Below, in pieces: positions 28,690-53,182 of a stretch of 53,182 nt of DNA. A model generated the notes under the pieces. It ran no database searches. It was not told where the DNA came from and was given only the letters and a program-made list of their open reading frames with translations. The position numbers were made by a program, and so were the translations under genes. Every line of letters starts with the position of its first letter. Positions within the stretch are counted from its first letter, which is position 1. Source of the stretch: Gemmatimonadota bacterium (GTDB lineage Bacteria; Gemmatimonadota; Gemmatimonadetes; Longimicrobiales; RSA9); assembly GCA_039715185.1 (NCBI GenBank), contig JBDLIA010000011.1, forward strand, positions 1-53,182. The letters run 5' to 3'.

Positions 28690-29178
28690 CTACGGTCCCT
28701 GGGGTCCCTCTCCGTCCAGCGGCACCCGCACGTCTACTTCCTGCCGGATGTCCCTATTGCTGGCCGTAACCCAACCCGCCACTCGGTAGTTTCCAGCGGC
28801 AGGTTCGGGCCAGCTCGTTTCATAGCTCAGGGTCGCTCCCGGAGCCAGCGTCTCGGAACCGAGAGCCTGGATGAAGGAGCGGCCCTCCGACCAGCGCCAC
28901 ACTTCCTCGCCCTCGACATCGGAAACTGAGACATCGAAACGCTGCCCGGAGTTGAAATCGAGTCGCACGGCCTCGCCGCCGGCATTCGTGATGCTGAGGA
29001 CGACGGCCACGTCGCGCTCGGCTACGCGCGCGATCAGTGACGTCGCGAGGTCGGCGGGTGCCTCGGCCGCCGCCGCGCCATCATCGGTCGCCGGCGAACC
29101 GTTCTGCGTGCCGCCGTCGGTGCCACCCGCGCACGAAAGCGTCAGCGCGCCCACGCCCGCGATGAAAAAACGATGCAT
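28690..29178 (-). CDS. Lipoprotein with a BsuPI (intracellular protease inhibitor-like) domain
   Basis: 162 residues. The signal peptide MHRFFIAGVGALTLSC ends in a lipobox with cysteine C16, followed by a Gly/Thr/Asp-rich linker to about residue 45. The rest is a beta-rich domain matching the BsuPI pattern (VVLSITNAGGEAVRLDFNSG, then a late LAPGATLSYETSW). The lipobox decides the start at 29178 over an in-frame ATG at 29277. Members occur in cell envelopes of several phyla, with unclear roles. It is divergent from the ATP synthase operon. Confidence 0.8.
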   Translation of the reverse strand: MHRFFIAGVGALTLSCAGGTDGGTQNGSPATDDGAAAAEAPADLATSLIARVAERDVAVVLSITNAGGEAVRLDFNSGQRFDVSVSDVEGEEVWRWSEGRSFIQALGSETLAPGATLSYETSWPEPAAGNYRVAGWVTASNRDIRQEVDVRVPLDGEGPQGP

Positions 29179-29360
29179 TCGTCGACCACCGTTGGAGCCA
29201 TTGACAAGTGCAAGAAGGTGCTCGATGTGAGGCCCGCCCGTCAAGCCGCGGAGGCCGACCGCCGTTTCCATTGCCAATCATTGAAGTCAGTACACAGCAA
29301 TGAGTTAGCTGGTGCGCGCCGGGCCCCGTGAAAGGGCCGTCCAGAGGGTCCTCCGGACGC

Positions 29361-29378
29361 TTGCGAAAAATTTCACAA
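29361..29378. promoter_or_regulatory. Rex-type operator upstream of the ATP synthase operon
   Basis: TTGCGAAAAATTTCACAA is a near-perfect dyad matching the Rex consensus TTGTGAA-N4-TTCACAA with one change (C for T in the left arm). The symmetry extends by GC on both sides (29359-29380). It lies 58 bp upstream of atpZ. Rex is the NADH-sensing repressor of respiratory and atp genes in several phyla. The rex gene itself is not in the window. Confidence 0.68.
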
Positions 29379-29389
29379 GCGGGTAGCTT
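29361..29389 (+). promoter_or_regulatory. Candidate promoter of the atp operon
   Basis: TTGCGA (29361-29366) and TAGCTT (29384-29389) are separated by 17 bp. The -35 box is the left arm of the Rex-type operator, so repressor binding would block RNA polymerase. The -10 match is modest. Confidence 0.5.
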
Positions 29390-29435
29390 AGGGCGCTGCA
29401 AACGAGCCGGTCACCGTTCGGGGAGTCGACTCGGC

Positions 29436-29675
29436 ATGACGAGTCCGGATCCGCAGGGAAGGCGCGGGGTGTCTGGCGCCGAGGCGCTTGGATTCGCCAT
29501 GACGATCGCCGCGAGCACGACGCTCTTCTTCTTCGGAGGAGGGGCGTTGGATCGCTGGGCCGGAACGGAGCCGCTTTTTAGTGTCCTGGGCGCGCTCCTT
29601 GGAGCAGGCGCGGGGATCTATTATATGATCCGTCGACTGATGCCGGGCGAGGGGCCAGGGGACGGCGCCGGGTGA
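29436..29675 (+). CDS. atpZ: AtpZ/AtpI-type ATP synthase accessory membrane protein
   Basis: 79-residue protein with two membrane spans (about residues 17-35 and 44-64) separated by GALDRWAGTEP, the pattern of AtpZ-like proteins at the head of F-ATPase operons. AtpZ with AtpI has been linked to magnesium/calcium transport or c-ring assembly. ATG 29436 has GGGGAG upstream. Its TGA overlaps the next GTG by 4 bp. Confidence 0.78.
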   Translation: MTSPDPQGRRGVSGAEALGFAMTIAASTTLFFFGGGALDRWAGTEPLFSVLGALLGAGAGIYYMIRRLMPGEGPGDGAG

Positions 29676-30046
29676 GGCGCTGGCTGCATTACGCGGCCGC
29701 GAGCGCTGTCATCGTCGCGGCGGGCGTGGGCTTGGGGAGCGCGTTGGCGCGTGAGCACTGGGAAGCGTTCCTGCTGGCCGGGGCGCTAGCGCTCGCGGTG
29801 CAGTTGGCCGCGTTCGGAGCGCTGGTGTGGGCCGCCGGTCGGCCGACGGAGTTTCTGGCGGCGTGGGCGGGCGGCATGGTGCTGCGGCTCGGGGTGGTGA
29901 TAGGGCTGGGCGTCTGGCTGACGAGGGGTGGACCGTTTGCGCCCCTCCCGACCCTACTGGCGGCCATAGCGCTGCTGTTCGCGCTGGCCTTGCTGGAACC
30001 GTGGGCGCTGCGTCGAAAAAACGAACCGACGGGAAGAGTCACCTAG
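29672..30046 (+). CDS. atpI: ATP synthase subunit I-like protein
   Basis: 124 residues with four predicted membrane helices, placed between atpZ and atpB as AtpI usually is. Sequence conservation in AtpI is low, so position and topology carry the call. The GTG start overlaps atpZ. Its TAG stop lies inside the left CTAG (30043-30046) of a palindromic element; the frame ends there, and the protein itself does not appear truncated. Confidence 0.75.
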   Translation: MRRWLHYAAASAVIVAAGVGLGSALAREHWEAFLLAGALALAVQLAAFGALVWAAGRPTEFLAAWAGGMVLRLGVVIGLGVWLTRGGPFAPLPTLLAAIALLFALALLEPWALRRKNEPTGRVT

Positions 30047-30210
30047 TGTACCGTAACGGAAGTTGGGTGTGCACCGAAGCGCGCGCAGCGCCCGCGAAGC
30101 AAGGCGCCGCGACGAAGCGTAGCCGTAGCTACGGTAAGAAGCGGCAACGATGCGCTCGCGGGATGCAGCGTGCGCTGAATGCCATCGAAACTTCGGTTAC
30201 GGTACACTAG
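30043..30210. mobile_element. 160-bp palindromic element with CTAG duplication (copy between atpI and atpB)
   Basis: CTAG at 30043-30046 and 30207-30210 flanks a 160-bp element (30047-30206). The ends read TGTACCGTAACGGAAGTT and, inverted, the same with one mismatch. The interior continues as an imperfect hairpin tipped by CGTAGC-CG-TAGCTACGG. No protein is encoded. The copy at 34427-34594 is the same length in opposite orientation. The upstream CTAG contains the atpI stop and the downstream CTAG touches the atpB ATG. A non-autonomous transposon (IS5-like target habit) is the likely origin. Confidence 0.85.
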
Positions 30211-31092
30211 ATGCGATCGTTCTTGCCGCTGCTCAAATCCGCCCAGGAGGGCGAGTTCGACATCGGGGAGATGATTCTCCATCACCTGGCCGACTCGCAC
30301 GAGCTCGAGATCGGCTCCTGGGTGATCCCGCTGCCGCGGTTCGACCCCGTCCACATCGGCCCGCTAACGCTGGACTTCTCCATCACCAAGCACGTGGTCT
30401 TCCTGATCCTGGCGGCCGCGCTTGTCATGCTCATGCTGATCCCGGCCGCCCGGCACGCCCAGCGCGCGCGCGCCGCCGGGTCGGAGCGCGGACCGAAGGG
30501 CGCGGCGAACGTGGTCGAGGCGTTCGTCCTCTTCGTCCGCGACGAGATAGCCATGAAGGGGGTCGGCCCGGGCGGTGAGCGCTACGCGCCGTACGTGGTC
30601 GGCGTCTTCTTCTTCATCCTGATGGGCAATCTGCTGGGCCTCGTGCCCTGGGGGGCTAGCCCCACGGGAAACATTTCCGTCACGGCCGCGCTGGCCGCGC
30701 TGACGTTCATCGTCGTCGAAGTCGGCGGTATGCGCGAGCTGGGTCCGGTGGGCTACTCCAAAACGATCTTCTTTGCGCCCTCCGGCCTGCCGCTGATCGG
30801 CACGGCGATCCTGATGATGGTCATGGCCCCCGTGGAGGCTCTGGGCAAGCTGACCAAGCCCTTCGCTCTCGCGATCCGGCTTTACGCGAACATGACCGCC
30901 GGCCACGCGGTAGTCCTCGCGTTCACGGGGATGGCGGTGACGGCGGGCCTCGCGCTGAACCTGATCTGGGTCGCGCCGATCTCGATGGCGGTCGGCATCA
31001 TGCTCTTGGAGATCCTGGTCGCGTTCCTCCAGGCCTACATCTTCGCGATGCTCAGCGCCGTGTTCATAGGGCTGATTCGGCATCCCCACTAG
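30211..31092 (+). CDS. atpB: ATP synthase F0 subunit a
   Basis: Proton-channel subunit of F0, 293 residues and multi-spanning. The essential arginine lies in ALAIRLYANMTAGH; the GNLLGLVPW segment is also typical. The ATG at 30211 follows the in-frame TAG of the element's CTAG directly, so no earlier start is possible and no Shine-Dalgarno sequence precedes it. An internal ATG at residue 21 (MILHHLADSHELE) is an alternative but has a poorly spaced GGGGAG. The other F0 genes follow. Confidence 0.95.
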   Translation: MRSFLPLLKSAQEGEFDIGEMILHHLADSHELEIGSWVIPLPRFDPVHIGPLTLDFSITKHVVFLILAAALVMLMLIPAARHAQRARAAGSERGPKGAANVVEAFVLFVRDEIAMKGVGPGGERYAPYVVGVFFFILMGNLLGLVPWGASPTGNISVTAALAALTFIVVEVGGMRELGPVGYSKTIFFAPSGLPLIGTAILMMVMAPVEALGKLTKPFALAIRLYANMTAGHAVVLAFTGMAVTAGLALNLIWVAPISMAVGIMLLEILVAFLQAYIFAMLSAVFIGLIRHPH

Positions 31093-31661: not shown

Positions 31662-32231
31662 ATGAACGCCATTTTCTTGCTGCTGCAGGAAGCGCATGAC
31701 GCCGTGGAGGGAGCCGCGGAGCAAACGCCGAACATCTTCAACCTGGAGATCGGCGTGTCCTTCTGGACGTGGGTGATCTTCCTCGGTCTGTTGTTCGTCC
31801 TCTCCAAGTGGGCGTTCCCGCCCATCCTGGGCTACGCCGCGGCGCGCGAGGAGCGCATCCAGAACAGCCTGGACGACGCGAAGCAGGCGCGCGATGACGC
31901 GGCGGCCCTGCTCGAGCGGCAGCGCGCGGAGTTGGCCGAGGCGAAGGACGAGGCGCAGCGCATCATCGCCGAGGGCAAGCAGGACGCCGAAAAGCTCAGG
32001 GCCGAGCTGCTGGAGCGCGCGCGCGCCGAGCAGCAGGAGTTGGTAGACGGCGCCCGCGCCGACATCCAGCGTGAGCGCGAACGGGCGGTGGAAAGCGTGC
32101 GCCGCGAGGCCGTCGATCTGGCTCTTGCCGCCGCGTCCAAGCTCGTGTCGGAGCGCATGGATGCGGACAACGACCGAAGGCTGGTCGAGGAGTTCCTGGC
32201 CGAGGCCGGTGCCGGCCTCGAGCGCGCGTAG
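31662..32231 (+). CDS. atpF: ATP synthase F0 subunit b
   Basis: Peripheral stalk subunit, 189 residues: one N-terminal membrane helix (about residues 33-52, SFWTWVIFLGLLFVLSKWAF) followed by a long charged coiled coil rich in Ala, Glu and Arg. Only one b-type gene is present, so a homodimer is expected. It is 6 bp upstream of atpH. Confidence 0.95.
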   Translation: MNAIFLLLQEAHDAVEGAAEQTPNIFNLEIGVSFWTWVIFLGLLFVLSKWAFPPILGYAAAREERIQNSLDDAKQARDDAAALLERQRAELAEAKDEAQRIIAEGKQDAEKLRAELLERARAEQQELVDGARADIQRERERAVESVRREAVDLALAAASKLVSERMDADNDRRLVEEFLAEAGAGLERA

Positions 32232-32837: not shown

Positions 32838-34400
32838 ATGGCGAGCACCGAAGCCCAGCTTCGCGCCGGAGAAATCAAGGAAGTCCTGTTGCGCGAGATC
32901 GAGCGCTACGAGGACGACATTCAGGTCGACGAGGTCGGCGAGGTCCTGGAGGTCAAGGACGGCGTCGCCCGTATATACGGGCTCTCGAAGGCCATGGCGA
33001 GCGAAATCCTGGAGATCACGTCGTCCGAGTCGGGCGAGGTGATCAGCGCGCTCGCGCTGAACCTCGAAGAGGACAACATCGGCGCCGTGATCATGGGCGA
33101 CTGGACGGCCCTGCAGGAAGGGGACGCCGCGCGTCGCACGGGGCGGGTGTTCGACATCCCGGTTGGCGACGGCTACCTGGGCAGGGTCGTGAACCCGCTC
33201 GGCGAGGCGCTCGACGGCAAGGGTCCCATCGACCCCGTGGCCGGCAGCCGGCAGATCGACGTGGTGGCTCCGGGAATCGTGAAGCGCCAGCCGGTCGCCG
33301 AGCCGCTCCAGACCGGCCTCAAGGCGATCGACTCCATGATCCCCATCGGTCGCGGTCAGCGCGAGCTGATCATCGGCGACCGCGGCACCGGGAAGTCGGC
33401 GATCGCGCTGGACGCGATCATCAACCAGCGCGACACGGGCGTCGTGTGCGTCTACTGCGCCATCGGCCAGCGCGCGGGGAAGGTCGCGAGCGTGGTGGAG
33501 ACGCTGAGGGAACGCGGCGCGATGGACTACACCATCGTGGTCGCGGCCAACGCGAGCGATCCGGCACCTCTGCAGTACATCGCCCCGTACGCTGCCTGCG
33601 CCCTCGCCGAGCACTTCATGTGGCAGGGCAAGCACACGCTGGTCATCTACGACGATCTGACGAAGCAGGCGCAGGCGTACCGCCAGCTGTCGCTGGTGCT
33701 GCGCCGTCCGCCGGGGCGCGAGGCGTTCCCCGGCGATGTCTTCTATCTGCACTCGCGTCTGCTCGAGAGGGCGGCCAAGCTGGCCGACGAGCAGGGCGGC
33801 GGGTCGCTGACCGCGCTGCCGATCGTGGAGACGCAGGCCGGCGACGTGTCGGCCTACATCCCCACCAACGTGATCTCCATCACCGACGGCCAGATCTTCC
33901 TCGAGTCAGACCTGTTCTACTCGAACGTGCGACCCGCGGTGAACGTCGGCCTGAGCGTTTCGAGGGTCGGGGGCGCGGCCCAGGTGAAGGCCATGAAGCA
34001 GGTCGCCGGTCGCCTGCGGCTGGACCTCGCGCAGTACCGCGCGCTGGAGGCCTTCGCGCAGTTCGGGTCCGAGCTGGATGCCACCACGCAGCGTCAGCTC
34101 GAGCGCGGCAAGCGGATCGTCGAGGTGCTCAAGCAGCCGCAGTACGCGCCGATGGCCGTGGAGGATCAGATCATGGTCATCTACGCGGTGACCAACGGGC
34201 ACCTGGACAAGGTGGACGTGGACAAGGTGCGCGCGTGGGAGCGCGGCTTCCTGGAGTTCGTCCGAACCCAGCGCGGTGAACTCGCCGAGCGGGTGCGCGA
34301 GGAGAAGAAACTCGGCGACGAGCTGGAGGAGGACCTGAAGGCGGCCATCACCACCTTCCACGACCGCTTCGAGTCGGGCGGGGAAGCCGAGGCGGCCTGA
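32838..34400 (+). CDS. atpA: ATP synthase F1 subunit alpha
   Basis: Non-catalytic nucleotide-binding subunit, 520 residues. The P-loop reads [11 protein letters not shown] where most alpha subunits have GDRQTGKT. The arginine that reaches the catalytic site is in the [11 protein letters not shown] segment. The full length and the remaining motifs ([20 protein letters not shown]) indicate a functional protein. Followed after 26 bp by a palindromic element and then atpG. Confidence 0.97.
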
Positions 34401-34426: not shown

Positions 34427-34594
34427 CTAGTGTACCGGAACAGAAGTGTCGGTGGCGTTCAGCGCGCGCTGCATCCCGCGAGCGCATCGTTGCCGCTCCT
34501 CACCGTAGCTATGGCTACGCTTCGTCGCGGCGCCTTGCTTCGCCGGTGCTGCGCGCGCTTCGGCGCACACCCAACTTCCGTTACGGTACACTAG
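34427..34594. mobile_element. 160-bp palindromic element with CTAG duplication (copy between atpA and atpG)
   Basis: CTAG at 34427-34430 and 34591-34594 flanks 160 bp (34431-34590) that match the 30047-30206 element in reverse orientation with scattered substitutions. The terminal repeats start TGTACCGGAACAGAAGT and end in the complement of TGTACCGTAACGGAAGTT. The right CTAG is followed at once by the atpG ATG. No coding potential. Two inverted copies in one operon, 4.2 kb apart, could recombine and invert the segment between them. Confidence 0.85.
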
Positions 34595-35476
34595 ATGGCC
34601 AAGGGCCAGGAACTCAAACGGCGCATCCGGTCGGTCGGCAAGACCCGCCAGATCACGCGCACGATGGAGCTGGTCGCCACATCCAAGCTGAAGCGGGCGA
34701 GCGACCGGGTCAAAGCGGCCAAGCCCTACGCGGAAGGCCTGCGGGGCGTCATCGGGCGGCTCCTGGACCCGGAGCTGCGCGAGCGCTACCCGCTCCTGCG
34801 CGAGCCCGATTCGGTCCGCCGCGCGGCGGTCGTGTTGCTCACCTCCAACCGCGGTCTCGCGGGGGCGTTCAACGTCAACCTGATCCGGGAGGCGCGTGAG
34901 CTGGTGGAGCGTCTGCGCGGAGACGGGGTCGAGGTCGACCTGCACGTGGTGGGCAAGAAGGGCATCAGCTTCTTCCGCTTCCGCGGCTGGGAGATGGCCT
35001 CCCAGCGGACGGACATCAGCGACAGGCCCTCCCTGGAGGACGCGGCCGGCCTGGTGGACGACCTGATGGGGGCATACGAGGGCGGCGAGCTGGACGCGGT
35101 GTGGGTCATCTACGCGCAGTTCCGTTCCGCGATGTCCACGCCGCCGTTCGCCAAGCGCATCCTGCCCGTCCAGACCGAAGCAGCGTCGGAGACCGCGGAA
35201 GAACGCGGCCGCTGGGTGGCGAACTTCAGCCTGTCGCCGTCGGCGGACCGGATCCTGAACGAGGTGCTGCCGCTCTACGTGCGCAGCTCGGTGTACGGCG
35301 CGCTGGTGGAGACGGCCGCCGCCGAGCAGGGCGCGCGCCGCACCGCCATGAAGAGCGCCACCGACAACGCCGGCGACATTCTGGAGGCGCTGCAGCGCAA
35401 GTACAACCGGGAGCGGCAGGCGCAGATTACGCAGGAGCTGGCCGAAATCGTGGGCGGCTCGGCAGCGCTGGAATAG
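34595..35476 (+). CDS. atpG: ATP synthase F1 subunit gamma
   Basis: Central stalk, 293 residues. The N terminus is canonical (MAKGQELKRRIRSVGKTRQITRTMELVATSKLKRA), as is the C-terminal ALQRKYNRERQAQITQELAEI, so the ATG at 34595 is certain. The start codon follows directly on the CTAG of the palindromic element and lacks a Shine-Dalgarno sequence. A 98-bp gap separates it from atpD. Confidence 0.97.
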   Translation: MAKGQELKRRIRSVGKTRQITRTMELVATSKLKRASDRVKAAKPYAEGLRGVIGRLLDPELRERYPLLREPDSVRRAAVVLLTSNRGLAGAFNVNLIREARELVERLRGDGVEVDLHVVGKKGISFFRFRGWEMASQRTDISDRPSLEDAAGLVDDLMGAYEGGELDAVWVIYAQFRSAMSTPPFAKRILPVQTEAASETAEERGRWVANFSLSPSADRILNEVLPLYVRSSVYGALVETAAAEQGARRTAMKSATDNAGDILEALQRKYNRERQAQITQELAEIVGGSAALE

Positions 35477-35559: not shown

Positions 35560-37001
<1,442 letters not shown>

Positions 37002-37002
<1 letters not shown>

Positions 37003-53084: not shown

Positions 53085-53182
53085 CTAGTGTACCGTTGCA
53101 GAAGTCCCGTAGGCATTCGGCCCGCGCTGCATCCCGCGGATGCGGCGTTGGAACTCCTTGCCGTAGCGACGGCTACGGCGCG
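53085..53182. mobile_element. 160-bp CTAG palindromic element, cut by the window end
   Basis: CTAG (53085-53088) followed by TGTACCGTTGCAGAAGT and 94 bp in total matching the left part of the 34427-34594 copy in the same orientation, with more divergence. It begins 11 bp after the deoA stop. The right end lies outside the window. Confidence 0.75.

Follow-up and report, generated by a model that had tools for sequence, protein, structure and literature searches.

In Streptomyces avermitilis, the NADH-sensing repressor Rex binds and represses the operons atpIBEFHAGDC, nuoA1-N1, cydA1B1CD and rex-hemAC1DB (PMC5355995). The protein has been shown to footprint the atpI and nuoA1 operators, which cover the -35 box, and to repress both (PMC5355995). 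In Thermotoga maritima, the residues through which Rex contacts DNA are Gln46, Arg48, Lys49, Ser52, Gly58, Arg60, Gly61 and Tyr64 (PMC8836258). For Gemmatimonadota, no literature on Rex was found in the open-access text searched, which agrees with the preliminary description of the DNA considered here, where no Rex report was known for the lineage. The genome concerned belongs to this phylum (order Longimicrobiales), and the window is the whole stretch of 53,182 nucleotides that was analysed, including the atp operon. Judged from sequence, the segment at 29359-29380 is very probably a Rex operator lying over the -35 box and the spacer of the atp promoter. This would extend to Gemmatimonadota a control of oxidative phosphorylation by Rex that is known from Actinobacteria.

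The candidate operator is an imperfect dyad of 22 bp, GCTTGCGAAAAATTTCACAAGC (29359-29380, plus strand), in whose arms, GCTTGCGAAAA and ATTTCACAAGC, nine of the 11 pairs match. Its core, TTGCGAAAAATTTCACAA (29361-29378, plus strand), differs from the Rex pattern TTGTGAANNNNTTCACAA by a single change, T to C at position 4; both the one-change fit and the 22-bp dyad had been given in the preliminary description and are confirmed. The 3′ half of the operator, TTCACAA, occupies 29372-29378 on the same strand. At one mismatch, the core is the sole match to the Rex pattern within the window, and its exact sequence would be expected, with up to three mismatches, 0.01 times per window.

The core lies 57 bp upstream of the atpZ-like open reading frame that opens the atp operon. 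This first gene (29436-29675; domain match to ATPase_gene1, PF09527) has a GGGGAG ribosome site at 29420-29425 and is followed, all on the plus strand, by a gene for a small membrane protein at the place of atpI (29672-30046, no Pfam match), atpB for subunit a of ATP synthase (30211-31092, PF00119), atpF for subunit b (31662-32231, PF00430), atpA for subunit alpha (32838-34400), atpG for subunit gamma (34595-35476, PF00231) and atpD for subunit beta (35575-37002). The intergenic region is common to the operon and to a divergent gene encoding a BsuPI intracellular proteinase inhibitor domain (28690-29277, minus strand). A palindromic repeat of ~169 bp (ends CTAGTGTACCG...CGGTACACTAG) occurs twice within the operon, in opposite orientations, at 30043-30211 between the atpI-like gene and atpB and at 34427-34597 between atpA and atpG; the RNA hairpins predicted for the two copies have energies of about -106 and -99 kcal/mol. 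About 40 copies are found in the genome, eight at an identity of at least 92% and many others at contig ends, and the repeat resembles elements of the MITE type. A further copy may begin near the end of the window (TAGTGTACCGTTGCAGAA, 53086-53103).

Control by Rex presupposes a Rex protein, and the window's genome has one rex gene, a canonical one, at C1:90294. Its product matches PF06971 (winged-helix N domain) and PF02629 (NAD(H)-binding Rossmann domain), both above cut-off, and its best PDB matches are Rex proteins. The recognition region, QVRKDLSVFGTFGKRGLGY, was aligned to solved Rex proteins, and all the DNA-contacting residues of T. maritima Rex are present in the motif according to our own mapping by motif position. 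The homologue on which the earlier reading depended is thus in place, with the right domains and the DNA-reading helix. A scan of the 3.66-Mb genome for TTGTGAANNNNTTCACAA with up to three mismatches returned 25 places, versus 4 for a reversed control pattern. Only three matches in the whole genome have zero or one mismatch: the single perfect one stands directly upstream of rex, and the two with one mismatch are the atp site and TCGTGAACGATTTCACAA before nuoA. The atp operator is therefore among the three best matches of the genome, and a Rex-type site does stand before nuo, one of the places where the preliminary description would expect the motif. Three matches with two mismatches were not convincing as Rex targets; two look intragenic, within coding sequence, and the third is positioned before a PpiD/SurA-like gene.

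The motif set recurs in relatives. Upstream of rex, the perfect palindrome is found in 44/50 genomes, and 3 others have a site with one mismatch. Upstream of nuoA, a site with up to three mismatches is present in 45/45 rex-carrying genomes, to which G007 adds a 46th, and in 0/5 of those lacking rex. A Rex-type site was also sought before cydA, since the preliminary description had named cyd genes as well, and none was found at the 15 loci examined. In Gemmatimonadota, rex, atp and nuo would thus form a small conserved regulon. An exact-pattern scan for CTTGCGAAAWWTTTCACAAG across 84,980 species yielded at least 119 stretches; among the 80 matches listed, nearly all are from Gemmatimonadota, and about 75 of these 80 loci are upstream of atp, in a uniform orientation. 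Among the exceptions in the listed loci are the promoter of gltB in a member of Gemmatimonadales and a gene of Acidobacteriota that, as read from the proteins, resembles the first gene of alternative complex III. One match labelled Kuenenia stands upstream of an atp operon of Gemmatimonadota type and may reflect a binning error.

Two observations on the wider distribution of these sequences can be added. In Gemmatimonadales UBA2989, a gltB-like gene for glutamate synthase is preceded by the same operator-promoter module. Perfect TTGTGAANNNNTTCACAA palindromes are in great excess in genus g12, with 17 in G012 and 5 in G022, and number 1 each in G034, G036 and the window's genome. Those of G012 (L350-L368) lie, as judged by eye, before or inside varied genes, such as a glycoside hydrolase, thyX, pyrF and an OYE-like gene, and some of the g12 palindromes that have CG at the centre may be sites for LacI-family proteins.

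Non-conservation of the dyad before atp in relatives would have spoken against the preliminary description, and the dyad is conserved. The site is found upstream of atpB in 64/67 genomes that carry rex versus 3/17 that lack it (Fisher test, 1.3e-10, a value inflated by relatedness), and shuffled upstream regions used as a control contain an atp-type site in 4/1680 cases. An AtpB tree of 57 genomes shows 9 changes of rex. Of 7 independent pairs, 5-6 show the site following rex, and in nearly all of 200 pairings no pair shows the opposite; rex and the operator have been lost jointly. The tree-corrected test gives a median p of 0.06 (range 0.03-0.22). The direction of the co-occurrence is clear, and its significance after correction is borderline. 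In agreement, a coarser survey of the phylum over 200 genomes, with a stricter pattern, found that pattern in 2/17 genomes without rex versus 113/183 with it. Three genomes have rex and no atp site (G070, G082 and G007, the last of which retains its nuo site), and three have the site with no rex found. Among the latter, G045 is only 72% complete, the genus of G104 has rex in other genomes, and the palindrome of G087 is degraded; the absence of rex from draft genomes may be a gap.

The 5′ half of the operator coincides with a putative -35 box, TTGCGA (29361-29366, plus strand), which is followed after 17 bp by a putative -10 box, TAGCTT (29384-29389, plus strand). The operator thus overlaps the -35 box of the predicted promoter from which atp transcription would start. 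The two boxes are weak relative to the sigma-70 consensus, matching it at 7/12 positions, and a consensus scan reported nothing. The spacing is conserved, TANNNT being found 16-18 bp downstream of the TTG hexamer at 61/65 atp sites. Genomes devoid of rex are informative here: the atp promoter reads TTGCGC-17-TAGCTT in genus g17, TTGCGC-17-TAGGTT in G173 and TTGCGACCCTTTTCCCCAGCCCCTATACT in G004; all of these retain both boxes and lack TTCACAA. Other rex-less genomes have the same -35/-10 geometry with a different -35 (TTGACC, TTGAAG or TTGATT). Because several rex-less genomes keep TTGCGN-17-TANNNT yet have lost TTCACAA, the left arm of the operator probably doubles as the -35 box, a dual use that the preliminary description had already proposed. 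Repeated natural losses of rex would in this way tell apart, at the level of single bases, the requirements of the promoter (TTGCG and the -10) and those of the repressor (TTCACAA).

Other regulators could be envisaged for the same bases. The dyad fits a site of the Crp/Fnr family (TGTGA-N6-TCACA) with one mismatch, as TGCGA-N6-TCACA, the Crp and Rex consensus sequences overlap, and a search of the window's genome gives one match above cut-off to a Crp-type HTH. However, the presence of the site tracks rex and not crp: four rex-less genomes with clear Crp-type proteins are without the atp site, whereas G034, a one-contig genome, has the site and no Crp match above cut-off. In addition, the genome's best match to the motif stands before rex itself. 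A Crp/Fnr regulon was rejected and appears highly improbable. It is hard to credit, too, that the segment is simply a strong promoter element whose spacer is AT-rich and whose dyad has no regulator. The persistence of the -35 half TTGCG and of the -10 without rex is what such a promoter would show, but TTCACAA is dispensable in the rex-less promoters and nearly invariant in the sites of rex-carrying genomes, and the same half-site is also found before rex and nuoA. Operators of the LacI family typically have a central CG; the atp site has none, and a LacI-type operator was rejected.

Within the Rex reading, the imperfection of the operator calls for its own explanation. At position 4, 98% of rex sites have T and 89% of atp sites have C. 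The atp mismatch is confined to the 5′ half and conserved across the phylum; the nuo sites of nearly all genomes deviate in the 5′ half at positions 1-2, and 43/45 are imperfect in this half only. TTCACAA, the 3′ half, hardly varies in the rex, atp and nuo site classes, although the atp sites of this tally were preselected for TTCACAA and their absent 3′ mismatches are partly by construction; an unconditioned scan gives the same picture. In twelve genomes a second atp operator stands in tandem with the main one at a distance of 23-56 bp, and its position 4 is A, G or C. We tentatively suggest, at somewhat less than even confidence, that selection keeps the atp and nuo operators of the phylum imperfect with a fixed 5′ polarity, as opposed to the perfect rex operator. 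If true, a conserved affinity ladder would exist, in which ATP synthase and complex I are released earlier than Rex itself as NADH rises.

It is likewise possible, if somewhat doubtful, that C at position 4 reflects affinity tuning rather than the -35 box, targets with operators kept weaker than the perfect one of rex being freed at smaller rises in NADH; this is a variant of the Rex-operator explanation and is compatible with it. In favour of tuning, the extra upstream atp operators, which are off the -35 position, read TTGAG, TTGGG or TTGCG and not TTGTG, and nuo sites, which have no evident -35 overlap, are also imperfect; rex sites are perfect. Against tuning, TTGCG is retained as the -35 in rex-less genomes, and the contacts described for T. 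maritima omit position 4, where the operator has A (PMC8836258), so that the effect on affinity may be small. The missing contact in T. maritima speaks for little cost to binding and for a reason that lies in the promoter, and the conserved C may be explained by a need of the -35 box for TTGCG. The conserved 5′ imperfection makes a case for asking whether bacteria may tune operator strength through one imperfect half-site.

Rex control of atp would then operate as follows. At low NADH, a Rex dimer, NAD+-bound or free, would sit on the atp dyad and block RNA polymerase; as NADH rises, Rex would leave the dyad and ATP synthase would be made. The same Rex would act at nuoA, for complex I, and at its own gene, and complex I and ATP synthase would thereby have their capacity set jointly by the supply of NADH. 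In the atp operator, the 5′ half would stay TTGCGA because it doubles as the -35 box, and the 3′ half TTCACAA would serve Rex alone.

As far as sequence can tell, this control would work in Gemmatimonadota as it does in S. avermitilis, where Rex operators likewise stand before atp, nuo and rex, and where the -35 lies under the atpI operator, TTGTGATACGGTTCACGA, as in the present case (PMC5355995). The two systems differ in that cyd is a target in S. avermitilis, whereas 0/15 cyd loci of Gemmatimonadota have a site. They differ also in the operator itself: the S. avermitilis atpI operator retains the left arm TTGTGA and has its mismatches elsewhere, whereas the mismatch of the Gemmatimonadota atp operator is always in the 5′ half, phylum-wide. 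The T. maritima TM0201 operator, TTGAGAAATTTATCACAA, is likewise imperfect at position 4 of the 5′ half, and T. maritima Rex has its DNA-contacting residues in common with the Rex of the window's genome, but its targets are central carbon and hydrogen metabolism (PMC8836258). Rex of Staphylococcus aureus has the same operator consensus, TTGTGAAWWWWTTCACAA, and acts as repressor of genes for fermentation and nitrate respiration, not of those for complex I and ATP synthase (PMC2883068). Set against these systems, the proposed mechanism would be known in kind and new in the phylum, and its fresh part would be the conserved polar imperfection.
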